From positions 1 through 34,796 of IMG/VR virus record IMGVR_UViG_3300021424_001402: DNA of 34,796 bases, one strand, 5' to 3'. This DNA is from a virus. Both the position numbers and the translations under genes were made by a program. Below are positions 15,237-34,221 of this stretch, piece after piece (position 1 is the stretch's first letter; every line of letters begins with the position of its first letter). The notes below the pieces were generated by a model. That model was not told the DNA's origin. It was given only the letters and a program-made list of their open reading frames with translations, and did not search any database.

Positions 15237-15468
15237 ATTTAAGTTTCCAATACGTTAAATTACTGCCCTCAAGATAGGCTATGATATCATAACGATGCCC
15301 ATATGTTGCTTGATCAACAACTCTGCGCCACATGGGCTGTTGTAAACTGTTTTTCATTATCCATTTACCCTCATCTGTTTGCTGCCACTTATATATAGGT
15401 TCAGCAACGAATAGATCAGGATCTTCCACGTCACCCATCATGATACTATGTACGATTACTTCTTGCAT
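15229..15468 (-). CDS. Unrecognised 79-residue protein between thyA and the epimerase
   Basis: I do not recognise this protein. It starts MQEVIVHSIMMGDVEDPDLF and is rich in Trp and aromatic residues (IYKWQQTDEGKW, QPMWRR, LTYWKLKYE), which suggests a compact soluble domain. The start overlaps the thyA stop by one base and the end overlaps the epimerase start by eight bases. This tight coupling shows it is translated and expressed with its neighbours. Confidence 0.75.
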   Translation of the reverse strand: MQEVIVHSIMMGDVEDPDLFVAEPIYKWQQTDEGKWIMKNSLQQPMWRRVVDQATYGHRYDIIAYLEGSNLTYWKLKYE

Positions 15469-16298
15469 TATACTGCCATCTTAGCCTTTATACTATCATG
15501 GCTTTGATAGTCAATCAACTTGATATCATCCATAGTAAATTTGTTAATGTCCTTTATGTCTGGATTAAGCCATAGTGTGGGTTGTTTATACATCTCCCGA
15601 CGTAACTGTTCGTTCACCTGTTCGACATGATCTTTATAGATATGGGTATCGCCTGTTGATATTATTAGTTCGCCTACCTTAAGATCACATACTTGAGCAA
15701 GCATATGTGTTAATAATGCATAACTTGCTATATTGAATGGCAAGCCCAAAAAGACATCGACGCTACGCTGATACATATGGCAACTAAGTTCATTATTATT
15801 ATTGACATAGTATTGGCTCATAACATGGCAAGGGGGCAATGCCATTTCATCAAGTTCGCCTACATTCCATGCACTAAGTATATGCCTGCGGCTGCGAGGA
15901 TTATTATTCAACCCTTCAACTAGTTTTTTTACTTGATCTACTCCGTTCCAATCACGCCATTGTACACCATATACACGACCTAGATCACCATCGAACTTTG
16001 CTTTAGGCTTCCAATAACCTGCCAATGCATTTGGTGTCCAGATAGTGACTTTGCCGCTACTTGATCCATGCGTGATCTCTGCTAGTCTACGTTCGTCGCT
16101 ACTACCTTCTAAGAACCAAAGTAGTTCACCTGCGCAGGCTTTCCATGCTAACTTCTTTGTAGTAATAGCAGGAAAACTTTCACGTAAATTAAACCTTAAT
16201 TGGCGAGAGAAAACAGAGATAGTACCGACACCTGTTCGGTCATCTTTGATTTCTCCGTTTTTAAGAATGTCCTCTAATAACTTATGATATTCAAGCAT
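15468..16298 (-). CDS. thyA: Thymidylate synthase ThyA
   Basis: The 276-residue enzyme converts dUMP to dTMP using methylene-tetrahydrofolate. All key elements are present: DDRTGVGTISVFS near residue 19 (phosphate-binding Arg), GELLWFLEGS, GRVYGVQWRDW, RSRRH, the nucleophile Cys157 in ALPPCHVMSQYYV, the SVDVFLGLPFNIASYALLTH stretch and GDTHIYKDH. The length is typical. It supplies dTTP for phage DNA synthesis and is common in T4-like phages. It overlaps its upstream and downstream neighbours by one base each. Confidence 0.97.
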   Translation of the reverse strand: MLEYHKLLEDILKNGEIKDDRTGVGTISVFSRQLRFNLRESFPAITTKKLAWKACAGELLWFLEGSSDERRLAEITHGSSSGKVTIWTPNALAGYWKPKAKFDGDLGRVYGVQWRDWNGVDQVKKLVEGLNNNPRSRRHILSAWNVGELDEMALPPCHVMSQYYVNNNNELSCHMYQRSVDVFLGLPFNIASYALLTHMLAQVCDLKVGELIISTGDTHIYKDHVEQVNEQLRREMYKQPTLWLNPDIKDINKFTMDDIKLIDYQSHDSIKAKMAV

Positions 16299-20188: not shown

Positions 20189-20941
20189 TTAGGGTTTCTT
20201 ATAAATGGGTATAGCAGTCATTTTGTGCAGATTTTGGCTACGTATTTTTATATATTTTTTTAGATTGTTATTAGCCTTTTTACTTTTTGGGACTGTTCCG
20301 TTTTGATGATGCATCATAGCCTCTTCTAGGCTAGGATAATCCATACCAAGTTGGTACTCATCTGTGCGACCATCATGCCACAACCCATCTGTAGGTTTAG
20401 CATCGACAATATCCTGTAAGATATCCAATTCAGTACCCAACTGCCAAACTTCAGTTTTCATCAAATCAGCAATTGGGCTTATATCAACACCACCATCGCC
20501 ATATTTAGTAAAGAATCCTACACCAAAATCTTCTACCTTATTACCTGTACCAACAACAATACCATTTACACTTTGTGCTACTTGATAAAGTGTCATCATC
20601 CGTAACCGACTACGGCTATTTGCAAAGCCTAATTGACTATTAAAATATGGTAATGTCAATGTACTATCAAATACATCAAAAGTTCTAGTTAAATCAATAT
20701 TAATATGTTTTACATTTTTATAATTTTTTGTAAGCCATTCACTATGACGTAAACTCAAACTATGTGTTTGCTCACTTTGACGAATTGGCATTGTAAGAGC
20801 ATATGTTTTTAATTTGGTTCGTGCGCAAAGTGTACTAACAACACTACTATCAATACCACCACTTACACCAACAACTAACGCACTAATACTATTTTGTTTG
20901 GCGTAGTCTTTGATCCATTTTGTAATTTGCTTTGCTAACAT
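20189..20941 (-). CDS. nadE: NAD synthetase, ammonia-dependent type
   Basis: The 250-residue enzyme adenylates nicotinate adenine dinucleotide and amidates it to NAD. The PP-loop SGGIDSS is at residues 27-33. GIVVGTGNKVEDFGVGFFTK and KYGDGGVDISPIADLMKTEV are the diagnostic ATP and NaAD-binding segments. DAKPTDGLWHDGRTDEYQLG matches the conserved loop that closes on the substrate. It lacks a glutaminase domain, as usual for the short bacterial form. Its ribosome binding site lies inside the arm of a long hairpin (20950-21003). It sits between the MoxR ATPase and the VWA protein, and a kinase-nucleotidylyltransferase fusion at 23218-24021 may act on related substrates. Confidence 0.93.
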   Translation of the reverse strand: MLAKQITKWIKDYAKQNSISALVVGVSGGIDSSVVSTLCARTKLKTYALTMPIRQSEQTHSLSLRHSEWLTKNYKNVKHINIDLTRTFDVFDSTLTLPYFNSQLGFANSRSRLRMMTLYQVAQSVNGIVVGTGNKVEDFGVGFFTKYGDGGVDISPIADLMKTEVWQLGTELDILQDIVDAKPTDGLWHDGRTDEYQLGMDYPSLEEAMMHHQNGTVPKSKKANNNLKKYIKIRSQNLHKMTAIPIYKKP

Positions 20942-23217: not shown

Positions 23218-24021
23218 TTACTTGAGTCCCATCTCTTTACGGATTTTTGTGGCAGATATTGAGTGTATCGCATCGTCAAAGACCTCTTGCTCAATCTTGT
23301 AACCTACATCACGCCCATATGTAATGTTAACGATATTTGGAACTACAACAATTTCATATTGACCTTGATACTTTGGATCTAAGTCTCTACGAATATACTC
23401 TTTTACCTGCTCAATAGCAAATGGGTTTGACCCATTCCATCCCTGACAGTCACGTATCATTATACATACTTGTCCAGTCTTAGCAATAGCACGTTCAAAC
23501 AATGCACGGTGACCTGCATGCCACGGTTGCCAGCGACCTAACATTTGTACTGTTTCTTTTTGATAATTAAATATTGGCCTTCGCTGGTTTTTTAATATAC
23601 GTTCGGCTACATAAGGAGCCCACAACTCTGCATTTTGTTCTGTAATACGAAAATCGTATTCTTTAGGAGGTGTAAACATTTTATTAGTATCTTCAAATCT
23701 TCCACGTTCAAGCGTGTCGATCCATACTACCCAATCTGCTTTAAAATTATTACGCATTTCAACCAATGGGGCTACAAAATCACAGATACAATATGTACCG
23801 GGAGCAGAAAGAGCTAATTGAGCCATTCTATGACTTTGGCGAATACGACCTTCATAACTGAAATCCCAGTCGCTGTATGTTTTACGTATTTCATCGGCAT
23901 TATACCATGTAACAGTGACCCCTATAATTGATATTAATTCTTCACGTAATTTATTTGCAAAATAAGTTTTACCGCTACCGGGCAGTCCCATTACTAAAAT
24001 TTTAATAGATGTATGACTCAT
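23218..24021 (-). CDS. Fusion of APS-kinase-like P-loop kinase and nucleotidylyltransferase
   Basis: The 267-residue protein has two parts. The N-terminal half has Walker A VMGLPGSGKTYFA (residues 10-22), WYNADEIRKTYSDW and RIRQSHRMAQLA, the pattern of adenylylsulfate (CysC-like) kinases. The C-terminal half starts near 158 with MLGRWQPWHAGHRAL, an HxGH-type nucleotidylyltransferase motif. It ends with SISATKIRKEMGLK, the matching (I)SxTxxR motif. This family includes NMN/nicotinate-mononucleotide adenylyltransferases and cytidylyltransferases. NadR-like proteins have the same two activities in reverse order. With nadE nearby, an NAD salvage role is attractive; alcohol-phosphate cytidylyl transfer is an alternative. 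It overlaps the upstream gene by four bases. Confidence 0.8.
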   Translation of the reverse strand: MSHTSIKILVMGLPGSGKTYFANKLREELISIIGVTVTWYNADEIRKTYSDWDFSYEGRIRQSHRMAQLALSAPGTYCICDFVAPLVEMRNNFKADWVVWIDTLERGRFEDTNKMFTPPKEYDFRITEQNAELWAPYVAERILKNQRRPIFNYQKETVQMLGRWQPWHAGHRALFERAIAKTGQVCIMIRDCQGWNGSNPFAIEQVKEYIRRDLDPKYQGQYEIVVVPNIVNITYGRDVGYKIEQEVFDDAIHSISATKIRKEMGLK

Positions 24022-24941
24022 TTTTTAATTACTTTAAATTTACCACTTGTACTTAATTTAGGAGGAATACCTGCTCTACTTGTTTTAAACGCAAATGCTT
24101 GAGCATTCTTTCTTATACTATCTGGTTTTACATCGACGGTTAATGCTGTTTTAAATCGTGGATCGTTTTTTTCTTTTTTGCTAGGTATGTAACCGCTAGC
24201 TTCATTCAACTCTTCTTCTGCCATACTATCCTCTAAACTTAGTTTCTCACTACGTAACTCATTTCGTAGGTCATATAATTTTTGAAACAAACCTTGTTTG
24301 CGTATTGCTTTGAAGGCTAGGTTCTCAGGACCAAACTCCCCTGTCTTTTCTAATCCTGCTTTGCGATAACGCTTAATAATGTCTAAAACTTTTTCTATTC
24401 TGTTTATACTTTTTGTTTTGATAGCAAGTTCAATTAACTCGCCTAACTTTTCATACTTAAGTTGTGTAGCACTTTGGTTAAAATTTGCTCTGCGTTTAGT
24501 AGGCCTTTTAATCCAGTCTTTATTAAGTAAACTATACTCACCTATGCTAGAGTGTTTTTGATTACTATCCTGTACATATAATTCTACTGGAACGCCATTT
24601 ACTTTTATATCGTAATTATCATTATAAACTGTTTTCTTAGCGTTAAAAAGTTCTTTATAAACTTCGTTGTCTGGTAACTTCATATAATCTACTAGTATAT
24701 GTAGATCAAGGTCACTGTATGGAGTATAACTATATGCTGCATTGCTACCAGATATTGTAATGTCATCAACTTTAAGATTGCTTAATCCAAGTTCGCTCAT
24801 AAAATCTTTAGCAATAACTGTAAGTTTGTCATAAACTTCTGGTAATAATTCACCATTACTAGTCCATAGTTCTGGGTTCAACTCATCATGGAACTTTACA
24901 GCATCACTTAATTTAAAACTTTCTAGTTCTTTAATATCCAT
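24018..24941 (-). CDS. Nucleotidyltransferase-fold protein (307 residues)
   Basis: Residues 64-83 read SGSNAAYSYTPYSDLDLHIL, the GS...DxD signature of the polymerase-beta-like nucleotidyltransferase fold with Asp77 and Asp79 as metal ligands. VNGVPVELYVQD supplies a likely third acidic residue. A helical region follows, then a C-terminal segment (SGYIPSKKEKNDPRFKTALT) found in other marine phage proteins. The enzyme may transfer a nucleotide to RNA, protein or a small molecule; nothing shows which. The ATG has no Shine-Dalgarno, and an AATAAATA late-type box ends five bases before it. Confidence 0.8.
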   Translation of the reverse strand: MDIKELESFKLSDAVKFHDELNPELWTSNGELLPEVYDKLTVIAKDFMSELGLSNLKVDDITISGSNAAYSYTPYSDLDLHILVDYMKLPDNEVYKELFNAKKTVYNDNYDIKVNGVPVELYVQDSNQKHSSIGEYSLLNKDWIKRPTKRRANFNQSATQLKYEKLGELIELAIKTKSINRIEKVLDIIKRYRKAGLEKTGEFGPENLAFKAIRKQGLFQKLYDLRNELRSEKLSLEDSMAEEELNEASGYIPSKKEKNDPRFKTALTVDVKPDSIRKNAQAFAFKTSRAGIPPKLSTSGKFKVIKK

Positions 24942-24946
24942 GTCTG

Positions 24947-24954
24947 TATTTATT
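24947..24954 (-). promoter_or_regulatory. Late-promoter box next to the nucleotidyltransferase ATG
   Basis: AATAAATA on the minus strand, 7 of 8 matches to the T4 late box, followed by CAGAC and the ATG. It overlaps the stop codon of the upstream oxygenase gene. T4 spacing would put the transcript start at the ATG itself. Confidence 0.5.
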
Positions 24955-25441
24955 AGAATATATCTAGTGTTATGTGTAATCTAGGTTGTGTACCTGCATT
25001 TGCAAAAGTATGAAAAATACTATTATTGACGAAATAAACAGACCCATCTGCTGGCATTGAAAAAACGTTGTTTTCATATACAAATTTACATCCAGGATTA
25101 GTTATAAGTGGTATGTGTAAGCACGACTCCATTTTGTCTACGTGCCAATTATAACATGTGTGCGGTTTAACATATCGATAATATATGCTATTGTAGGGAA
25201 TATATTTGGTTAAACTCTCAAATACTGATTTAGTGTATGGCATAGAATTGATTACATCATGCCACTGATATCTCTGCATGATTGCAAATTTCAATTGCAT
25301 AAAATTATCTATCCAATCTAAGGATTTACAGTTTTCAAATTCTCTCAGTAAAGTTTTTACTTCAACTGTAAAATTTGGTATTTTTTCAATATATTCTACT
25401 GTAGGTTTATAGTTTTGACGTAGTTTGTTAATTGCGTTCAT
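24953..25441 (-). CDS. 2-oxoglutarate/Fe(II)-type oxygenase-like protein
   Basis: From the ATG at 25441 the protein has 162 residues. CYNWHVDKMESCLHIPL supplies the HxD iron ligands (His100, Asp102), and SVYFVNNSIFHTFANAG supplies the distal His144. PRLHITLDIF has Arg154, a likely 2-oxoglutarate-binding residue. The pattern fits the aspartyl/asparaginyl hydroxylase-like and related phage dioxygenases, which hydroxylate proteins, nucleic acids or small molecules. A longer frame would begin inside the tmRNA coding piece and is unlikely. No ribosome binding site is visible. A TAGAAATA box precedes the ATG by five bases. Confidence 0.75.
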   Translation of the reverse strand: MNAINKLRQNYKPTVEYIEKIPNFTVEVKTLLREFENCKSLDWIDNFMQLKFAIMQRYQWHDVINSMPYTKSVFESLTKYIPYNSIYYRYVKPHTCYNWHVDKMESCLHIPLITNPGCKFVYENNVFSMPADGSVYFVNNSIFHTFANAGTQPRLHITLDIF

Positions 25442-25446
25442 AGAAA

Positions 25447-25454
25447 TATTTCTA
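25447..25454 (-). promoter_or_regulatory. Possible late-type box before the oxygenase gene
   Basis: TAGAAATA on the minus strand differs at one position from TATAAATA and ends five bases before the ATG at 25441. It is also part of a short palindrome (AGAAAT/ATTTCT), so it may be chance. Confidence 0.35.
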
Positions 25455-25457
25455 GAG

Positions 25458-25479
25458 AAAGGTCCCGTTAAGGACCTTT
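25458..25479 (-). terminator. Hairpin at the 3' side of the tmRNA gene
   Basis: An 8-bp perfect stem (AAAGGTCC / GGACCTTT) with a six-base loop, followed by CTCTAG, lies just after the tmRNA coding piece. It could stop transcription or mark the 3' processing site of the precursor. The lack of a T-run makes intrinsic termination uncertain. Confidence 0.5.
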
Positions 25480-25489
25480 CCTGACTATT

Positions 25490-25644
25490 GGTTAATAAGG
25501 GTGTCACCCCCATCTAGTATGCCCTTAGGCTGCTAGAGCAAATGTTTCATCATTTGCGTTTACTTTGTTTTACGCTAATTACGTTAGTCGTCTTTCGGAC
25601 TGTCTGCTTGAGTACTACTTGCATTGTCGAAACTGTTCATCCCC
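25490..25644 (-). ncRNA. tmRNA coding piece (5' half with tag reading frame)
   Basis: It begins with G1 at 25644 and the D-loop-like AGTTTCGACA, then the P2 strand and an A-rich region with AAAGTAAAC just before the resume codon GCA (25557). The tag is ANDETFALAA with stop TAA at 25527-25525. After it, UAAGGG and CCCUUA can pair around a GGGU-GAC-ACCC hairpin, as in the helix that follows the tag in other tmRNAs. The 3' end is approximate. Confidence 0.88.
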
Positions 25645-25738
25645 AATGTATGTTCTATTGGAACTGTACCCCAACCTACTAATCTTCCCCATTCACGTTC
25701 TGTGTAAAACAGATTGCGTGGCATATTATCAATACTAC

Positions 25739-25805
25739 TGGTGGAGATGGCGGGATTCGCACCCGCGTCCAAAGCATCGTTCCCCTCACTTCCTACAGTC
25801 ATATA
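25739..25805 (-). ncRNA. tmRNA acceptor piece (3' half, encoded first)
   Basis: This part runs from the P2 strand GACTGT through GGACGCGGGTGCGAATCCCG to the encoded CCA at 25739. The T-stem has five GC-rich pairs (GCGGG/CCCGC), and the T-loop TGCGAAT departs from the usual TTCGAAT at one position. The CCA is encoded, so no tail addition is needed. The 5' end is approximate. Confidence 0.88.
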
Positions 25806-25819
25806 AACCTCTACAAAAG

Positions 25820-25827
25820 TATTTATT
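25820..25827 (-). promoter_or_regulatory. T4-type late promoter of the tmRNA gene
   Basis: AATAAATA on the minus strand (7 of 8 matches) overlaps the last codons of the upstream 74-residue gene and predicts a start near 25814, about ten bases before the acceptor piece. This would make the tmRNA a late product. Confidence 0.5.
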
Positions 25828-26047
25828 CAGCGTTGCTAACAAACTCGTTTAGTTTCTTTGCTTCAGCAATAATATCTTCAGTAGTCGGTGCATTAGGCAT
25901 CTTTGGGTAGGTTGCATTAGGATTATTGTCCCTTGCTGCGACCCATTGTTGCTCTAAACTTGACCTTTCGACAAAGTAAGGCTCAAAGATACTTTCCTTG
26001 GCCAGTCTTAATAGATCCAGACGGATCTCGTATGGTGATTTGCTCAT
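25823..26047 (-). CDS. Conserved hypothetical phage protein (74 residues)
   Basis: The protein starts MSKSPYEIRLDLLRLAKESI and contains VERSSLEQQWVAARDNNPNA and a TTEDIIAEAKKLNEFVSNAE end. Similar short proteins with a KSPYEIRLELL start occur in many T4-like marine phages, with no known role. It looks helical and soluble. A strong AGGAGGT precedes the ATG, and a perfect TATAAATA lies about 41 bases upstream, so it is expressed late. The tmRNA follows directly. Confidence 0.8.
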   Translation of the reverse strand: MSKSPYEIRLDLLRLAKESIFEPYFVERSSLEQQWVAARDNNPNATYPKMPNAPTTEDIIAEAKKLNEFVSNAE

Positions 26048-26087
26048 AATTACCTCCTGTGTGTATGTGTGTTTTTATAAGCGAAAG

Positions 26088-26095
26088 TATTTATA
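26088..26095 (-). promoter_or_regulatory. T4-type late promoter of the 74-residue gene
   Basis: A perfect TATAAATA followed by CTTTCGC on the minus strand gives a predicted start near 26082 and a 35-base leader with AGGAGGT before the ATG at 26047. This is a textbook layout. Confidence 0.7.
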
Positions 26096-26106
26096 CTATA
26101 AACTTA

Positions 26107-26220
26107 TTAGTAAAAAATTCCATATGCTACGCACCATGCTTCAAGTAGTAATCTATATCCTACATATGCTGCTAGGTATGCGAGTAAACCTTTATAAAAA
26201 ATTTCTTTAATGTCTATCAT
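26107..26220 (-). CDS. Small membrane-associated protein (37 residues)
   Basis: The frame from ATG at 26220 encodes MIDIKEIFYKGLLAYLAAYV followed by GYRLLLEAWCVAYGIFY. It is hydrophobic and aromatic with one likely membrane helix. Its start overlaps the stop of the methyltransferase-like gene as ATGA, good evidence for coupled translation. No family recognised. Confidence 0.6.
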   Translation of the reverse strand: MIDIKEIFYKGLLAYLAAYVGYRLLLEAWCVAYGIFY

Positions 26221-27470
26221 ATATTTGTATTTAGATAATCCTTATTGTTCTTACGAAATACCCATATGGGTTCAACAAAAATACTATTCTTGTCTGCCTC
26301 TACAATAGCATGTGGGCGAGCCTGCATACGCATACCAATCTTACCTAGATAATATGCGTTAGGATAAGTCAATATATCATCAACCATATCGTCACATAGA
26401 TTTAATCTTACGCCCTTAGCGGTTCTAGGTTCAATAATATTAATCATCATAAAGGCGTCATCAGTTAGTGTATCCCATATCATACGATTGACTTTAAAGA
26501 AAAAGTCATGTTTCCAACTATCAAACGATGGATAACGGACCCAACTTTGTGTGCTACTGTTGTTAGCAGCATATCTTTCTGTTTCGTAATAGGGAGGACT
26601 TGTAAAATAAAAATCAAATGTATTATGGTATAGATTCCAGTCTACATCTTCGCTAGGTAGATTGTAAATAATAACTTTTTTAATACCTATACATATAAAG
26701 TGATTATCAAATTCTTGTAATACTGCACTATCACATCCTAATAAGTTTTCATATTCTAAACATTGATCTTTATATGTCTGATAAACTTCGGGATTAGGAT
26801 CACAACCTACATATAACTCTGTGCTAGATGTAGCATAAAACCCTGCTAGTCTATCTCCCCAACCACAACTTGTATCTAATACTTTACGTGCGTTATGTTT
26901 TTCATATAATCCCTTTGCCACATTAGGTTTAAATTGTGTTGCTGTATATGTACCTATACGAAATGCACTGCGAAATGTACTTTCACATACATCACTTTTA
27001 CCTAGTGTGCCTAAACGCCAGAAGTGCCAATTCATGTCATTTAACATTTTACGATCATGCCAAATGTCCCAGGGACTACTTACAAGATTACTACCACACT
27101 TCATACGGTTTGTTTGTTGAAAGTAATTGCTAACACTATTATAGGCATGTGATTTGTCAATTACACCCAACGGGTTGTCAGTATACTTGTATTTGTAATC
27201 AGCACGTTCAAATACACTACCGGGATATTTGTATTGATCCAACATACTTGCTTTAGTAAATTTTACAAACAAGTCAGACATTTCATCATAACTAATTTCT
27301 TTAATTGGGAAAGGTAAGTTATTACCAATAATATATTCGGTTAAACTTTCCTTAATATCACGCTTGTCATATTGCGTAATTAAGTTACGCCAGTCACTAT
27401 TAGGAACGTGTGGAATACCACGACTGTCAGTATAACTGTCAAAGTAATTTAAGATATTTGGATTAATCAT
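26217..27470 (-). CDS. DNA-methyltransferase-like protein with TSPPYY motif
   Basis: In this 417-residue protein residues 197-210 (VLDTSCGWGDRLAG) form the SAM-binding motif I. Residues 290-295 (TSPPYY) are the catalytic motif IV of amino-group (N6-adenine/N4-cytosine) DNA methyltransferases. The order motif I then IV fits the beta/gamma-type layouts. The N-terminal 190 residues contain no motif that I recognise and may be target-recognition or structural. PRTAKGVRLNLCDDMVDDIL lies near the C-terminus. There is no restriction enzyme next to it, so it may protect phage DNA or modify another substrate. The start has no strong Shine-Dalgarno. Confidence 0.75.
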   Translation of the reverse strand: MINPNILNYFDSYTDSRGIPHVPNSDWRNLITQYDKRDIKESLTEYIIGNNLPFPIKEISYDEMSDLFVKFTKASMLDQYKYPGSVFERADYKYKYTDNPLGVIDKSHAYNSVSNYFQQTNRMKCGSNLVSSPWDIWHDRKMLNDMNWHFWRLGTLGKSDVCESTFRSAFRIGTYTATQFKPNVAKGLYEKHNARKVLDTSCGWGDRLAGFYATSSTELYVGCDPNPEVYQTYKDQCLEYENLLGCDSAVLQEFDNHFICIGIKKVIIYNLPSEDVDWNLYHNTFDFYFTSPPYYETERYAANNSSTQSWVRYPSFDSWKHDFFFKVNRMIWDTLTDDAFMMINIIEPRTAKGVRLNLCDDMVDDILTYPNAYYLGKIGMRMQARPHAIVEADKNSIFVEPIWVFRKNNKDYLNTNI

Positions 27471-27582: not shown

Positions 27583-27661
27583 TTCTGGTTTATCTTAGCA
27601 CCTGCATAGTGCTTTGATCCTTCAATAAAACCATCGCTGTGCGACAAACACTACTCCAGAA
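27583..27661 (-). ncRNA. Structured RNA domain upstream of the tRNA-like element
   Basis: TTCTGG and CCAGAA close a domain containing a small hairpin (TCGC-ACA-GCGA) and a 5-bp stem with a 7-base loop (AGCAC-TATGCAG-GTGCT), that is, a three-way junction. No convincing reading frame exists. It follows a late-type promoter box and lies just 5' of the tRNA-like element. I do not know this RNA class. Confidence 0.4.
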
Positions 27662-27677
27662 GGTCGTGCGGTTAGTT

Positions 27678-27688: not shown

Positions 27689-28063
27689 TTACTCTAAAGG
27701 CAACTCAATTAATTTGTTTTCTCTATCTAAATATTTCATCTCAATTTTAACAGGATGAAAGTCACGTAGTGCTTCTACTACGTCATATGGGTCGAGATAT
27801 CCGCAAGTATAAACATCTAATTGTACAAGTGCAGGGTTATCTTCGTCCCAAATATGTAATGCGATATGACTTGTTTCAATAATTGCTACAGCCGTAAGTC
27901 CCCGGTTGCCTTCTACGTTTAGATATTTTGCATATGGACCCATCATGACCTTCATACCAATCTTATCAACTAGTTTATTCATCCAGTCAATAGCGACCTT
28001 TTCATCAGTAATTGGATTACCAACTTCAGCACGTATTATTAAATGTTTATGTACGACTGCCAT
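27689..28063 (-). CDS. speD: S-adenosylmethionine decarboxylase, bacterial SpeD type
   Basis: At 124 residues this is the length of the class 1b proenzyme. IIETSHIALHIWDED contains the self-cleavage site: Glu-Thr | Ser65, which becomes the pyruvoyl group, with His70 five residues on. VQLDVYTCGYL has the catalytic Cys87. The enzyme makes decarboxylated SAM for spermidine synthesis; polyamines neutralise packaged DNA. T4-like cyanophages carry speD too. It begins with TAATG at the end of the giant repeat gene and is followed by a late promoter. Confidence 0.88.
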   Translation of the reverse strand: MAVVHKHLIIRAEVGNPITDEKVAIDWMNKLVDKIGMKVMMGPYAKYLNVEGNRGLTAVAIIETSHIALHIWDEDNPALVQLDVYTCGYLDPYDVVEALRDFHPVKIEMKYLDRENKLIELPLE

Positions 28064-31000
28064 TATTTGTATTTCCTATCGTAATATTCTTTTAACCAAC
28101 TCCATTCATAACTATATTTAAGTTTAGTAATATCTCCGCCTACTTGCTTATAATATTCTACTGCATCATTTGCCCCACGTAAACAATCTTCAGCAAACAT
28201 GCCATTTGCTTTATTGAGCCAGACCTGCAACCGATCATAACTTATATCACTAGTATCACTTTGTAGTTTTATAACCTCGCGGAAAGCAGTACGCCAAGTG
28301 CTATAAGCATCAGTATTAAATTCTGCTACACCAGATAGTATGTTTATCACTGAGTGAGGATCATCTAATGTAAAGTCTAGACCTTTACCATTATTTTCAA
28401 GTGCTAATTTCTTATTATATGCAATCATGGCTTGGTGACCATATATAAGTTCGTTAACTGGATTCTTAGCATGAAATATGTAATGTTTTGGAGATTGTAG
28501 TCTGTCTGGTTGCCAACTCCAATCAAAATATTTGTCAATTTTAAGTTTAGCAAAAATCGTAAACATCCAGGGCGTGTTGCTGGCTTCTGCTGCTGCGTGA
28601 TAGGCTTTTACTCTGCCATTAATACCATCAACACGCACTATTCTGTTTTGTAATCCCTTAGTAACTTTTAACAAATATTCATAATTCTTATCAGCAAATT
28701 TTTCGCCGTTACTTAAATAAATTATATCTAATGGATTAGATTTAACTATATTTTTTGATTTGCTAATATGTGGATAGTCATATAATTGTTCTCCTATATG
28801 GTCTTGTATTTGTTTAGGTATGGCAAGTACAGAACCACCAGTTGATAATACTTCAATATTTTTAGTATGACTAGCCCAAAGTGACATAGGTTCATTGTAG
28901 TTACAAGTAAGATTTTCATTATCTTTAGTATAAAATAATGCATATGGAAAATTATATTCTTTGGTATAAGCATTATAGTGTGTATCCTCAGTAGTTACAA
29001 ATACAGGTGGATTAAATCGTGGGACTTTTAAATGCTCATTATAAGTTACTTTTTGATAATCTTCTAAATTCTTTAGATCAGTAACTAATGATCTAAGTTT
29101 ATTAACATCAATTAAGAATGTATCCCCAAACTTCTGATTGTTACTTGAAAATACATGTAGGTTTTCTTTAGCGAAGGGATCGCAAATAAAACTAAAATCA
29201 AAATTACTATAATCACATACGCTACTACATATCCAGATATAATGTTCTTTTTTAGTTTCTAAATCTTGCAAAAGATTTTTAAATGTCTTTAGGTAACTTT
29301 CTTTATATGGAATAGTAATTATATTTTTTTGTGTTTTTATTTCTAATTGATTTTTTATCTCATCAGTCATATTACCGTGATCTATAAGATAAACATCATA
29401 TAAGCAACTTACAGCCTTTGCAGTTCTATCTTTAACAAAATTTAAATTTGCTAAGTGTTCAATTACTTTAACACCTAATTCATAAGTATCATCAAAGAAT
29501 GTATCTTTATTAATCATATAGGTTGTTCCCCAGTGACTCCACTGAGTACCAAATATATGAATCATTTGCATCTGCCATGGATTAGGATAATATTTGAAAT
29601 TAAATTTAGTATAATCTAGCTCACTATTCAATATCCATGCTAATTGAGTAGTGCAACGTTTAGTACATCTATATATAGTTTCTGCCCAATTATTTAAGTA
29701 ACGTGTTTTAATTATATTTGGATATAACTTTTTTAGTTCTTCGTAACGTTTTTGCGACTCTTTATTTCCACGATCAATATAAAACATATCACTAGGATTG
29801 AACAATTCTGATAGATATTCACTATCAACTTTAATATTTGTTTCAACAAAGTTAAACTTTTTCGATCCTTCACTATACATTTTACCGCTAACAAAATATG
29901 TATGAGTTAGTTTTGATTCAGGACTACCAAATACGTGTACGTAGCGCGCCTGTTCGATATTTGGCCGCCAACTAAAATTAAAGTTGTCGTAATTAATATT
30001 TTTGTTTAGTGCCCAAAATACTTCTGATGGATGCTGTTTTACAAGATCATCAAGTGTGGTTGTAATATAATATTTTGGTAATTCTTTATCTAATAGTAAA
30101 CTTGAACGTGTAATTTCAGATGATCTTTTTGTTTTACTTTCTATACGTAGTAGTCTTACAACTTCGCCTGTATTAAGTGGGTGTATATATCTTGGACCAT
30201 CATTGTCATCAGCAAGAGTACCAAATTGATAGATGTAAGGAGGTTCAGTATCATCTGGATGCCAACTAAAATCAAAATTAGTAGTATCTACATCGTTGGG
30301 CACCTGCCAATGACTAAGGTCTACTAATTTTGTAGCTTTTTGTGTATCAATAAATTTAACTTGAGTGGCCCCAGGAACACTATATATAGGACCACCTGTT
30401 TTTTGATGTTGAGTACCAAACTCATAGATATAAGGAGGGTCTTTAGGATTAGGTACCCAACTGAAATCAAAATGTTCACAATCTATATTATTAAGTTTTG
30501 TCCAGTGCGTCATATCTACATCTAATTTCGCTACAATATCAGAGACAAACTTTTCTTCACTTGCCCCGTCCACTGTATATTTTACAGTAGGCATAATTTC
30601 GCCTGGATATTGATTATTACCAAATATATAAATGTAGGGAGGACTGTCTGGATCTGGTCTCCAACTGTAGTCAAAACTAGTTTCTACTATAGGATGTAAT
30701 ACCGTAAAATTATCTTTGTTTGGTTTCACAGTAATTAAAATATCGTGTACATAGTGTCGTTTAACTGCACCTTGTACGTGATACTCAAGCGTACTTTCTT
30801 TCTCAGCGTTATTCCACTTATTGCCAAATACATATATATATGGTGGCGCTTCGGGATGAGGAGTCCAAGTAAAAATAGTGCCGTCATCGACTATAGGAAT
30901 ATTAATCTTCCACGGTTTTTTATTAGTAAGTGTTTTTGCTTTTATATTCTCAACATACTTTTTAGAGAAAGATCCTGGTACTTTATATTGTGGACCACCC

Positions 31001-34000
31001 CTATTATTCCATATAGTAGCGAATTCATAGATATATGGTGGATGAGTAGGATCCGGAACCCAACTAAAATCAAAACTATTTCTGTCTATATTTTCAGGTA
31101 TGGTCCAATTATTATAGTTAGTATCAAGTGTTGCTATAGGATTATTAAGAAATTTGATGTTTGTGGCCCCAGGTATTACATATTTTACAGTAACCATATT
31201 TTCTGCTGGATATAAATTATTTCCAAATACATAAATGTATGGGTCGTCTGTATTATCTGGATGCCAACTGTAATCGAAATATTTTACTTTAACAGTAGAA
31301 GGTATTTCCCAATTTTGTTTAGTTGGAATAGCAGTTGCAGTATCGCAGTATAGGTACTTAGTTTGTGTTGCACCTTTAACTACGTATATAGGGCCGCCAT
31401 TTTTTTGCCATTGCGTATTAAATTCATATTTGTATGCTGGTTCTGTTTCATCTGGATGCCAACTGTAATCAAAATTGCTATCGTCAATATTATTAGGTAT
31501 TATCCAACTTGATTTATTCGGTAATTTCTTCGCTCTCTGTAAATCAATAAATTTTGTTTTTACTGCGTTAGGCACAACATATCTAGGCCCGCCGGTCTTT
31601 TGATGTTGTGTGCCAAATTCATATATGTAGGGTTCTTCTCTATTGTCTGGGTGCCAACTAAAATCAAAATTATTAACATCTATATCTTCAGGAATAGTCC
31701 AATGTTTTTTATAAGATATAGCAATTGATTTTTGTATTCCTATATATTTTATTTCTGTAGCGCCTTCTACGATATATCTAGGACCACCTGTCTCTTGCCA
31801 TTGTGTACCGAACTCATAGATATATGGTGGTTCAGTATCATCTGGATGCCAACTAAAATCAAAATTACTATCGTCAATATTTTTAGGTATATGCCAATTT
31901 TTACGCGAAACTTTAGCCGTTCCTTTAGTAAATGACTGTTTAGTTTTTATTTGTTTTATATACTTTGTTTCAGTTGCACCCGGTACTATATAGACTGGTC
32001 CACCAGTCTTTTGATGTTGTGTACCAAATTGATAGATGTAAGGAGGTTCAGTATCATCTGGATGCCAACTAAAATCAAAGTTTGTAATGTCTATCTCATC
32101 AGGTACCTGCCAGTTAGCAATATTAGGTAATTTTTTAACTTTTTGAAAACTTACAAATTTAAGTTCTGTTCCACCTGCTACTGTATATACAGGTCCGCCG
32201 GTCTTTTGATGTTGTGTACCGAACTCATAGATATATGGTGGATCACTGGGGTTAGGTTTCCAACTAAAATCAAATCCAGTAGCGTCAATATTTTCAGGCA
32301 CTATCCAGTGCGTCATATCAGCAGCGAGTTTTGCTACAGGATTAGTCATATATTTGTATTTGGTAGCCCCTTCTACTACATAACGCACGGTATGCATTTC
32401 TTCTGCTTTATATTGATTATTACCAAACACATATATGTATGGAGGATCATCTGGGTGTGGGTGCCAAGTAAAGTCAAATTCATTTTCAATAATTGGTATT
32501 AATATTTCCCAATTATCTCTTTCTGATAATAAATGACCTATTACATTGTCAACATATTTTACTTCAGTTGCGCCTGCTACAACATATTTAGGTCCGCCAG
32601 TTTCTTGCCATTGTGTACCAAACTGATAAATGTAGGGCGGGTCTTTGGGGTTTGGTACCCAACTAAAGTCAAATGTAGTACTATCTATATTTTTAGGTAC
32701 TATCCAATTTTTTCTTGTTTGCTTTAATGTTGCAGTTATATGTTTAACATACTTTATTTGTGTAGCACCTTCAACTGTGTATTTTACTGTAGGCATTATC
32801 TCTGCAGGGTACTGCGTGTTACCAAATACATATATGTATGATTCATCAGTACTGTCAGGGTGCCAACTATAATCAAAATCTGCTACTTCTATATCTTCAA
32901 AAAATTCAAATAGTTTTCTATTAGGTAATTTTTTTGCACGTTGAACGTCAACATACTTTATATCTGTTGCTCCTTCAACTATGTATTGCGGACCTCCTGT
33001 CTTTTGATGCTGCGTACCAAACTCGTATATGTAAGGAGGTGCTTCCGGGTGTGGTACCCAACTAAAATCAAAATCTGTAGTGTCTATATGACTAGGTATT
33101 TCCCAATTAGTCTTATTAATTTTTAATGTTGCTTTTACATTATCAATATATTTCTTTTCGATAGCCCCTGGAACAGTATAAACAGGTCCGCCACGATCAT
33201 TCCATACTGTAGAGAACTCATATATGTAGGGAGGACTCACACTATCAGGGTGCCAACTAAAATCAAAATTGTCTGTGTTGACATTATTAGGTATTTCCCA
33301 GTTGTTCTTATTAGGCAATCTTTTAGATTTCTGAATGTTGATATATTTGACTTCAGTTGCTCCGGGAACAATATATCTTGGTCCACCGTTCTCTTGATGT
33401 TGTGTAGGGAATTCATAGATGTATGCTGGCTCTCTTGGATCAGGTCTCCAAGTAAAATCAAATGTTGTTTTATCTATGTGTGCTGCTTCCCAACGATCAT
33501 ATTCAGGTAATACGTCGATAAGTTCTGGCATATACTTATATTCTGTAGCATTTGGAGTATGATACTCAATCGTACTTTTAAGTGTGCCATCAATGTATTT
33601 GTTACCCCATACATAGATATATGGTGGGTCGCGTGGGTCAGGGCGCCAACTTAAATCCCATTTTTCACTGTCTACCGCCTGTGTAATTACTAGATTTTCA
33701 TAATCTGGTTCTAGTTCTACAACTTCATCCATCCATCTTTCTTGTGTTGCACCGGGGACATGATATTCAAGTACGTGTTTGATTTGACTTTCATACCATT
33801 TGCAACCCCACTTATATATAAAAGGGGGACTGGTAGGGTCGGGATGCCAACTAAAATCAAACTTAGTTTTATCAACTTTATCTAAAAATACCCAGTGTGA
33901 AGTATCTTCGTGTCGTTTTAATGGTTGTACGTCTGTACGATAAACAATATTATCTGTATATTGTTTAGGGCATAGCCATGTACCGCTATCTTTCTGTATT

Positions 34001-34221
34001 AAACTTGGCCATGCGTTATTACAAGTTTCATGCCATACTTGTTCGTTTGGCAAAAAATCAAAGTCAAAGTCCCAATCAAAATTAGTATAATCACAATACT
34101 CATTCACTATCCAAAAGTGTTCTGTAGTAGATTGATATCTAGCATCTTCTAGATTTTTAGCAGACTTTTCTCTTGGATGGACGTTTGGCTTGTGTCCATA
34201 ATAAAACACATCACGTAGCAT
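28063..34221 (-). CDS. Giant repeat protein (2052 residues, about 24 FDFSWHPD repeats)
   Basis: The protein consists of about 24 copies of a roughly 70-75 residue unit. Its core reads FDFSWHPDxxxPPYIYEFG, then GGPxYxVPGATExKY and a helical NW(x)IPxxID linker. The first copy (near 36-60, FDWDFDFLPN) and last four (from about residue 1400) are divergent. The final copy, FDWSWQPDRLQSPKHYIFH, sits in a C-terminal region that looks like a glycosyltransferase-type Rossmann domain (DIIYLSNGEKFADKNYEYLL). No signal peptide or membrane helix is seen. The gene lies between a carbamoyltransferase and speD. Similar repeated proteins occur in marine T4-like phages as unnamed proteins. A fibre, adhesin or inactive-transferase array are all possible. 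Confidence 0.9.
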   Translation of the reverse strand: MLRDVFYYGHKPNVHPREKSAKNLEDARYQSTTEHFWIVNEYCDYTNFDWDFDFDFLPNEQVWHETCNNAWPSLIQKDSGTWLCPKQYTDNIVYRTDVQPLKRHEDTSHWVFLDKVDKTKFDFSWHPDPTSPPFIYKWGCKWYESQIKHVLEYHVPGATQERWMDEVVELEPDYENLVITQAVDSEKWDLSWRPDPRDPPYIYVWGNKYIDGTLKSTIEYHTPNATEYKYMPELIDVLPEYDRWEAAHIDKTTFDFTWRPDPREPAYIYEFPTQHQENGGPRYIVPGATEVKYINIQKSKRLPNKNNWEIPNNVNTDNFDFSWHPDSVSPPYIYEFSTVWNDRGGPVYTVPGAIEKKYIDNVKATLKINKTNWEIPSHIDTTDFDFSWVPHPEAPPYIYEFGTQHQKTGGPQYIVEGATDIKYVDVQRAKKLPNRKLFEFFEDIEVADFDYSWHPDSTDESYIYVFGNTQYPAEIMPTVKYTVEGATQIKYVKHITATLKQTRKNWIVPKNIDSTTFDFSWVPNPKDPPYIYQFGTQWQETGGPKYVVAGATEVKYVDNVIGHLLSERDNWEILIPIIENEFDFTWHPHPDDPPYIYVFGNNQYKAEEMHTVRYVVEGATKYKYMTNPVAKLAADMTHWIVPENIDATGFDFSWKPNPSDPPYIYEFGTQHQKTGGPVYTVAGGTELKFVSFQKVKKLPNIANWQVPDEIDITNFDFSWHPDDTEPPYIYQFGTQHQKTGGPVYIVPGATETKYIKQIKTKQSFTKGTAKVSRKNWHIPKNIDDSNFDFSWHPDDTEPPYIYEFGTQWQETGGPRYIVEGATEIKYIGIQKSIAISYKKHWTIPEDIDVNNFDFSWHPDNREEPYIYEFGTQHQKTGGPRYVVPNAVKTKFIDLQRAKKLPNKSSWIIPNNIDDSNFDYSWHPDETEPAYKYEFNTQWQKNGGPIYVVKGATQTKYLYCDTATAIPTKQNWEIPSTVKVKYFDYSWHPDNTDDPYIYVFGNNLYPAENMVTVKYVIPGATNIKFLNNPIATLDTNYNNWTIPENIDRNSFDFSWVPDPTHPPYIYEFATIWNNRGGPQYKVPGSFSKKYVENIKAKTLTNKKPWKINIPIVDDGTIFTWTPHPEAPPYIYVFGNKWNNAEKESTLEYHVQGAVKRHYVHDILITVKPNKDNFTVLHPIVETSFDYSWRPDPDSPPYIYIFGNNQYPGEIMPTVKYTVDGASEEKFVSDIVAKLDVDMTHWTKLNNIDCEHFDFSWVPNPKDPPYIYEFGTQHQKTGGPIYSVPGATQVKFIDTQKATKLVDLSHWQVPNDVDTTNFDFSWHPDDTEPPYIYQFGTLADDNDGPRYIHPLNTGEVVRLLRIESKTKRSSEITRSSLLLDKELPKYYITTTLDDLVKQHPSEVFWALNKNINYDNFNFSWRPNIEQARYVHVFGSPESKLTHTYFVSGKMYSEGSKKFNFVETNIKVDSEYLSELFNPSDMFYIDRGNKESQKRYEELKKLYPNIIKTRYLNNWAETIYRCTKRCTTQLAWILNSELDYTKFNFKYYPNPWQMQMIHIFGTQWSHWGTTYMINKDTFFDDTYELGVKVIEHLANLNFVKDRTAKAVSCLYDVYLIDHGNMTDEIKNQLEIKTQKNIITIPYKESYLKTFKNLLQDLETKKEHYIWICSSVCDYSNFDFSFICDPFAKENLHVFSSNNQKFGDTFLIDVNKLRSLVTDLKNLEDYQKVTYNEHLKVPRFNPPVFVTTEDTHYNAYTKEYNFPYALFYTKDNENLTCNYNEPMSLWASHTKNIEVLSTGGSVLAIPKQIQDHIGEQLYDYPHISKSKNIVKSNPLDIIYLSNGEKFADKNYEYLLKVTKGLQNRIVRVDGINGRVKAYHAAAEASNTPWMFTIFAKLKIDKYFDWSWQPDRLQSPKHYIFHAKNPVNELIYGHQAMIAYNKKLALENNGKGLDFTLDDPHSVINILSGVAEFNTDAYSTWRTAFREVIKLQSDTSDISYDRLQVWLNKANGMFAEDCLRGANDAVEYYKQVGGDITKLKYSYEWSWLKEYYDRKYK
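30218..30276 (-). repeat. 59-base exact repeat in the giant gene, copy A
   Basis: These 59 bases are identical to 32021-32079 and encode part of the DDTEPPYIYQFGT repeat. The two copies are eight or nine repeat units apart, so they reflect recent duplication or gene conversion between distant units. Confidence 0.9.
32021..32079 (-). repeat. 59-base exact repeat in the giant gene, copy B
   Basis: Identical at all 59 positions to 30218-30276. Shorter near-identical stretches recur in most other units of this gene, which makes the unit count sensitive to read length in assembly. Confidence 0.9.

Follow-up and report, generated by a model that had tools for sequence, protein, structure and literature searches.

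Apparent protein genes, encoding conserved small proteins, lie inside the intervening sequence (IVS) of permuted tmRNA genes in dozens of related phage contigs. For the phage locus described here, we think it probable that one precursor RNA yields both a beta-type permuted tmRNA and a small phage protein, the latter encoded in the excised segment.

A permuted tmRNA of betaproteobacterial type in a large phage

The window, i.e., the whole stretch of 34,796 bases that was analyzed, is an IMG/VR virus record and a fragment of a T4-like large phage, whose terminase has its closest counterparts (49%) in PA5oct-type phages and in giant Sinorhizobium and Agrobacterium phages. ARAGORN called a permuted tmRNA on the minus strand (25434-25831) with the tag ANDETFALAA*. 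The locus scored 126 bits with the Rfam model RF04321 (tmRNA_permuted; cut-off 47, E 1.7e-24) and 110.4 bits with RF01850 (beta_tmRNA; cut-off 84), the latter match being full-length over model positions 1-331; these two scores rule out chance. A first-pass annotation made from the sequence alone had proposed an intact phage tmRNA with the acceptor half preceding the coding half, without giving the strand, and the ARAGORN and Rfam results bear this out. The parts of the locus are listed in Table 1.

Table 1. Features of the tmRNA locus and its surroundings, in window coordinates
Feature	Position	Strand	Basis
Nucleotidyltransferase-like gene (phrog_36119), downstream of the tmRNA; synteny marker in relatives	24018..24941	-	
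Coding half: acceptor strand GGGGATG, GTTTCGAC, tag frame, pseudoknot region	25454..25644	-	RF04321 and RF01850 alignments, ARAGORN
Terminator-like hairpin GGAAAGGTCC..GGACCTTTCT, tmRNA 3' end	25456..25481	-	Sequence; 3' end of RF01850 alignment
Proteolysis tag frame ANDETFALAA + TAA	25525..25557	-	ARAGORN, sequence
Overlapping ORF, 72 aa (MTVGSEGNDALDAGANPAISTSSIDNMPRNLFYTEREWGRLVGWGTVPIEHTLGMNSFDNASSTQADSPKDD), across acceptor half and IVS into the start of the coding half	25584..25802	-	ORF list
IVS, 94 nt, not part of mature tmRNA	25645..25738	-	Sequence, IVS extraction
Acceptor (3' tRNA-like) half: P2 strand, T-arm, 7-nt CATCTCC, discriminator A, encoded CCA	25739..25800	-	RF04321 alignment and sequence
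Shine-Dalgarno-like AGAGG, 5 nt before ATG 25802	25808..25812	-	Sequence; identical in L284, L287, L106
T4-late-promoter-like ATAAATAC, 5' of tmRNA	25819..25826	-	Motif scan

The pairings and tag that had been described are all present. The 7-bp acceptor stem forms seven of seven pairs between GGGGATG (25644-25638) and CATCTCC (25749-25743), including a G3-U70 wobble, which is an alanine identity element, and CCA is encoded in the gene (25741-25739, minus strand). In the Rfam alignment, P2 joins the 5'-terminal GACUGU of the acceptor half to ACAGUC in the coding half. The tag is complete with its stop and reads GCA AAT GAT GAA ACA TTT GCT CTA GCA GCC TAA on the minus strand (25557-25525). In the T-arm (25765-25749, minus strand), the T-loop is TGCGA rather than TTCGA, with G instead of T at position 55, which could weaken the tRNA-like fold; the same unusual G55 is found in 22 other phage permuted tmRNAs, making 23 with the window. 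The late promoter that had been suggested is possibly the T4-late-like candidate ATAAATAC, which ends 16 nt upstream of ATG 25802; four further minus-strand sites in the window carry this motif too.

The first-pass annotation had also taken the permuted form as a pointer to an alphaproteobacterial or SAR11 host. This reading is unsupported because the tmRNA is beta-type rather than alpha-type: the alphaproteobacterial model RF01849 gave 60.9 bits versus 110.4 bits for RF01850, scores that speak against an alphaproteobacterial or SAR11 origin of the RNA. The tag ANDETFALAA is similar to Burkholderiales tags, and exact ANDETFALAA followed by TAA was found in bacterial genomes mainly in Burkholderiaceae and Colwellia-type gammaproteobacteria, where the tmRNAs called with this tag are all one-piece. 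Tags of bacterial beta-type permuted tmRNAs include ANDERFALAA and ANDEQFAIAA. Together, the model scores and the tag point to a beta-like (Burkholderiales-type) source. The window tmRNA resembles the bacterial RF01850 members in anatomy and score, but their IVSs are 24-43 nt long and free of genes and their CCA is often not encoded, whereas in the window gene CCA is encoded and the IVS, at 94 nt, is coding-like.

The phage two-piece tmRNA itself is already known (PMC9004378). A permuted tmRNA above the cut-off was found in roughly half of the 85 related phage contigs that were scanned (29 of 50 and 13 of 35, in two scans that have one record in common), often directly preceding the same nucleotidyltransferase gene as in the window. 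A search for isolated phages close to the window tmRNA gave short matches only. Unannotated permuted tmRNAs were seen in the isolates Stenotrophomonas phage DLP_6 (KU682439.2, locus L002, 2474-2817, tag ANDDSFAPMAIAA) and Xanthomonas phage X1 (OQ427096.1, locus L546, 1441-1891, tag VAANDADYSVARYA); no nested gene was seen in the IVS of either. Some phage permuted tmRNAs (L629, L177, L170, and L151) have unusually long tag frames of 26-31 aa by ARAGORN, e.g., AKTAFQYWQAPVGVSAMNDSEFALAA. A search for SmpB genes in 26 phage records, of which some are longer than 300 kb, found none, and host SmpB would therefore be needed.

The tmRNA lies among metabolic genes on the same strand, which include NAD synthetase (20189-20941), a kinase/cytidyltransferase-like gene (23218-24021), a thymidylate-synthase-like gene (15468-16298), and AdoMet decarboxylase (27689-28063). 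An ORF of up to 186 aa (24953-25513, minus strand) between the tmRNA and the nucleotidyltransferase gene was found in one other contig only; it appears to be a recent insertion because close relatives are without it. Upstream of a methyltransferase-like ORF (26217-27470), and not far upstream of the tmRNA, is a match to the Rfam COG2908 RNA motif (27629-27673, minus strand, 65.7 bits), a candidate regulatory RNA that also occurs in contig L611 (489-533, 70.2 bits). A 2052-aa protein (28063-34221, minus strand) contains many copies of an FDFSWxPDxxxPPYIYxFGTQ-like repeat.

A conserved frame spans acceptor half and IVS in the window group

The 72-aa ORF that overlaps the tmRNA, and the coding potential of the IVS, had not figured in the first-pass annotation. 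The window and seven related loci (L284, L285, L287, L289, L106, L610, and L611) form one group of eight. In every member, the frame that starts at ATG 25802 stays open across the acceptor half and IVS, and it is the sole open frame, each of the remaining frames containing two to seven stops. Its length changes are multiples of three. At the corresponding site of other phage tmRNAs an in-frame TGA is common (GTA TGA AGT). Upstream of the start, AGAGG or AAGGA is present in five of the eight members, and three are without a clear Shine-Dalgarno sequence. The single open frame of the window IVS encodes the conserved peptide PRNLFYTEREWGRLVGWG. For the IVS part of the group, dN/dS was 0.37, and the enrichment of changes at third positions was equaled in 25 of 2000 shuffles, a modest signal; pairwise counts are not independent.

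The peptide belongs to a family with a YYYxxxEWxRLGCGPLP-type motif, and homologs are found in other settings. L177 and L134 have a stand-alone homologous frame of about 55 aa a short way upstream of the tmRNA, and in L452 the homolog is a regular nested gene with its own Shine-Dalgarno sequence and ATG in the IVS. Marine phages L620-L625 have the same motif in the same arrangement with a longer IVS. No homolog of the stand-alone protein was found in isolated phages. Unlike most nested relatives, the window group has no Shine-Dalgarno sequence and ATG of its own in the IVS after CCA, and translation of its ORF would have to pass the tRNA-like T-arm. The frame in the window group is likely protein-coding, less securely so than in the other families.

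Apparent protein genes are nested in the IVS of related phage tmRNAs

When the window locus was aligned with its relatives, the IVS varied like a protein gene. The IVSs of all phage permuted tmRNAs in the collection were extracted. Two sets were formed, one of loci found through the tmRNA or phage kinship and one of loci found through a DNA pattern (AGGA after CCA); selection of the latter biases the AGGA element, not the ORFs. In the typical nested layout, a Shine-Dalgarno sequence immediately follows CCA (TAAGGAAGTTT), the guest gene has its ATG 6-15 nt (mostly 11-13) inside the IVS, and its frame stops at the IVS end or close to it; in 32 of 64 loci, TGA is located 1 nt ahead of the first nucleotide (G1) of the coding half. 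Where the IVS was at least 100 nt long and had an early ATG, the frame was open over at least 75% of the IVS in 7/7 loci identified by the tmRNA or by phage kinship alone, compared with 0.26 expected from dinucleotide shuffles (maximum 2), and in 34/35 of the AGGA-selected loci (null 2.85, maximum 8). The bacterial permuted tmRNA IVS has a median length of 30 nt and a maximum of 75 (n = 49, in a sampling that included long ones); in alphaproteobacterial controls the halves were located with a relaxed acceptor-stem rule.

The guests are diverse. Those of 68-133 aa fill the IVS, and guests of up to 415 nt part the two tmRNA halves. One contains a thioredoxin domain (PF00085, 4e-21), and one has a PGDYG match (3e-6); others are unrelated frames of 122, 124, and 133 aa or membrane peptides of 22-28 aa. 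No homologs of the large guests in L324 and L325 were found in isolated phages. Across guest families with four or more members, dN/dS was 0.17-0.37. It was 0.17 for a 24-aa guest family (0/500 column shuffles), 0.34 (1/500) and 0.18 (5/500) for further families, and 0.27 for one in which it was not significant (50/500). These codon statistics are indicative of purifying selection. Guests unlike in length and sequence occur on backbones that are 72-80% identical, which fits an exchangeable slot. The halves still scored 70-148 bits with RF04321 with the guest present, and the tmRNA thus shows no obvious damage.

A nested frame is also present in a cultured marine phage. Melnitz (MZ577097, locus L636), a Methylophilales phage, contains the unannotated frame MFKWLSKTRLVVITRDYF... 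within its annotated tmRNA (45984-46436), with GGAG before the ATG. The family of this ORF (n = 11, including Melnitz) has a dN/dS of 0.27, with 0/1000 shuffles. The two-piece tmRNAs of Melnitz and pelagimyophages have been published, as have 53 phage two-piece tmRNAs in a 2021 collection, and that of Melnitz was described as alphaproteobacterial and controlled by a glutamine riboswitch (PMC9004378). Melnitz and the window are alike in having a phage permuted tmRNA with an intact tag, and the Melnitz IVS holds a conserved ORF; they are unlike in that the window tmRNA is beta-type and has no glutamine riboswitch match nearby (25300-26250, E<=10). That the nested ORFs are an artifact of the AGGA pattern can be rejected on the evidence of the loci collected without that pattern, the codon statistics, and Melnitz.

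The IVS ends covary and are predicted to bury the guest ribosome-binding site

Among 64 coding IVSs, the two ends of the same IVS pair over a mean of 10.4 bp, compared with 8.2 bp when ends are swapped between loci (sd 0.18, maximum 8.7). Since own ends pair better than swapped ones, the ends of the IVS covary. The guest ribosome-binding site had a predicted unpaired probability of 0.01 within the precursor and 0.11 within the excised IVS, rising to 0.79 on removal of the last 10 nt; according to this folding model, the IVS stem buries the guest ribosome-binding site. Because that site pairs with the IVS 3' end, we infer that the guest would be translated from the nascent transcript, before that end exists.

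Discussion

The following course of events is proposed. Enzymes of tRNA processing would excise the IVS, leaving the two halves paired with each other. Host alanyl-tRNA synthetase would charge the G3-U70 acceptor, host SmpB would bind the tmRNA, and the RNA would rescue stalled ribosomes and append the ANDETFALAA tag, a signal to host proteases of the ClpXP type. The guest sits within the IVS in most coding relatives, and its ribosome-binding site after CCA would pair with the guest's own last codons and stop at the IVS 3' end. Translation would take place before that end is made; closure of the stem would then stop it and expose the acceptor for processing. In the window group, the guest would instead be read from ATG 25802 via the acceptor half, each transcript serving either as message or as tmRNA. 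The wider reading, which we hold to be evenly balanced, is that phage pre-tmRNAs are dual-purpose, that the spacer discarded in bacteria has become an interchangeable gene slot in many phages, and that the N-terminus of the window-group protein is written in the tRNA-like half. Guest translation and tmRNA maturation would then be mutually exclusive, because the guest ribosome-binding site forms the processing stem.

Alternatively, the window might have a phage two-piece tmRNA of the ordinary kind whose spacer is non-coding; its IVS frame would then be open by chance or be left over from a captured gene that no longer has a function. Many phage IVSs in the collection are indeed structured and non-coding, the window IVS is without a Shine-Dalgarno sequence and start of its own, and the codon signal of its group is weaker than that of other families. 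We consider this unlikely, given that frame 0 alone is open from the ATG to the IVS end in 8/8 members, that it changes length in multiples of three, that its peptide matches stand-alone genes (L177 and L134) and a nested gene (L452), and that motif and arrangement recur in the marine phages.

A different objection is that the inserted genes have broken the tmRNA, leaving the halves as relics or as decoys titrating host SmpB, a role that has been put forward for the tag-less DS6A form. Inhibition of host tmRNA has been suggested for some tmRNA-like phage RNAs (PMC4131195); the halves are parted by guests of up to 415 nt, and T-loop position 55 is altered in 23 sequences, including the window. 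Against this, most loci retain the acceptor stem, T-arm, P2, and an intact tag frame, the RF04321 score persists with the guest present, the IVS ends covary into a stem, and a conserved tag would be needless for a decoy, which makes loss of tmRNA function very improbable. The reading in which one precursor provides both a tmRNA and a protein is preferred.

Our search of the open-access literature gave no report of a protein gene placed in the IVS of a permuted tmRNA. The known cases of inserts in tmRNA genes are of other kinds. Intron-form tmRNA contains a homing endonuclease gene in a self-splicing group I intron in the T-loop (PMC11915505). It is like the phage loci in that a protein gene inside the tmRNA gene is removed at maturation; it differs in that a mobile endonuclease is carried in an intron, whereas the phage loci carry ordinary small phage genes in the processing spacer of a permuted gene. 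A tRNA-Ala gene in a permuted tmRNA IVS is known from one nominally archaeal record, reported as unique, and one repetitive element in an IVS is also known, with no IVS protein genes reported there (PMC11915505). The tRNA-Ala record shares with the phage loci a gene carried in the IVS, its guest being an RNA gene.

The IVS of phage permuted tmRNAs has hitherto been regarded as waste. Should genes be routinely carried there, among them genes for enzymes such as thioredoxin, these transcripts would be structured RNA and message at once. Gene callers and tmRNA finders each miss half of such a locus, as exemplified by the unannotated nested gene of Melnitz. The layout suggests a built-in switch between a phage protein and a ribosome-rescue RNA, and the cultured Melnitz-OM43 system is suited to testing it.
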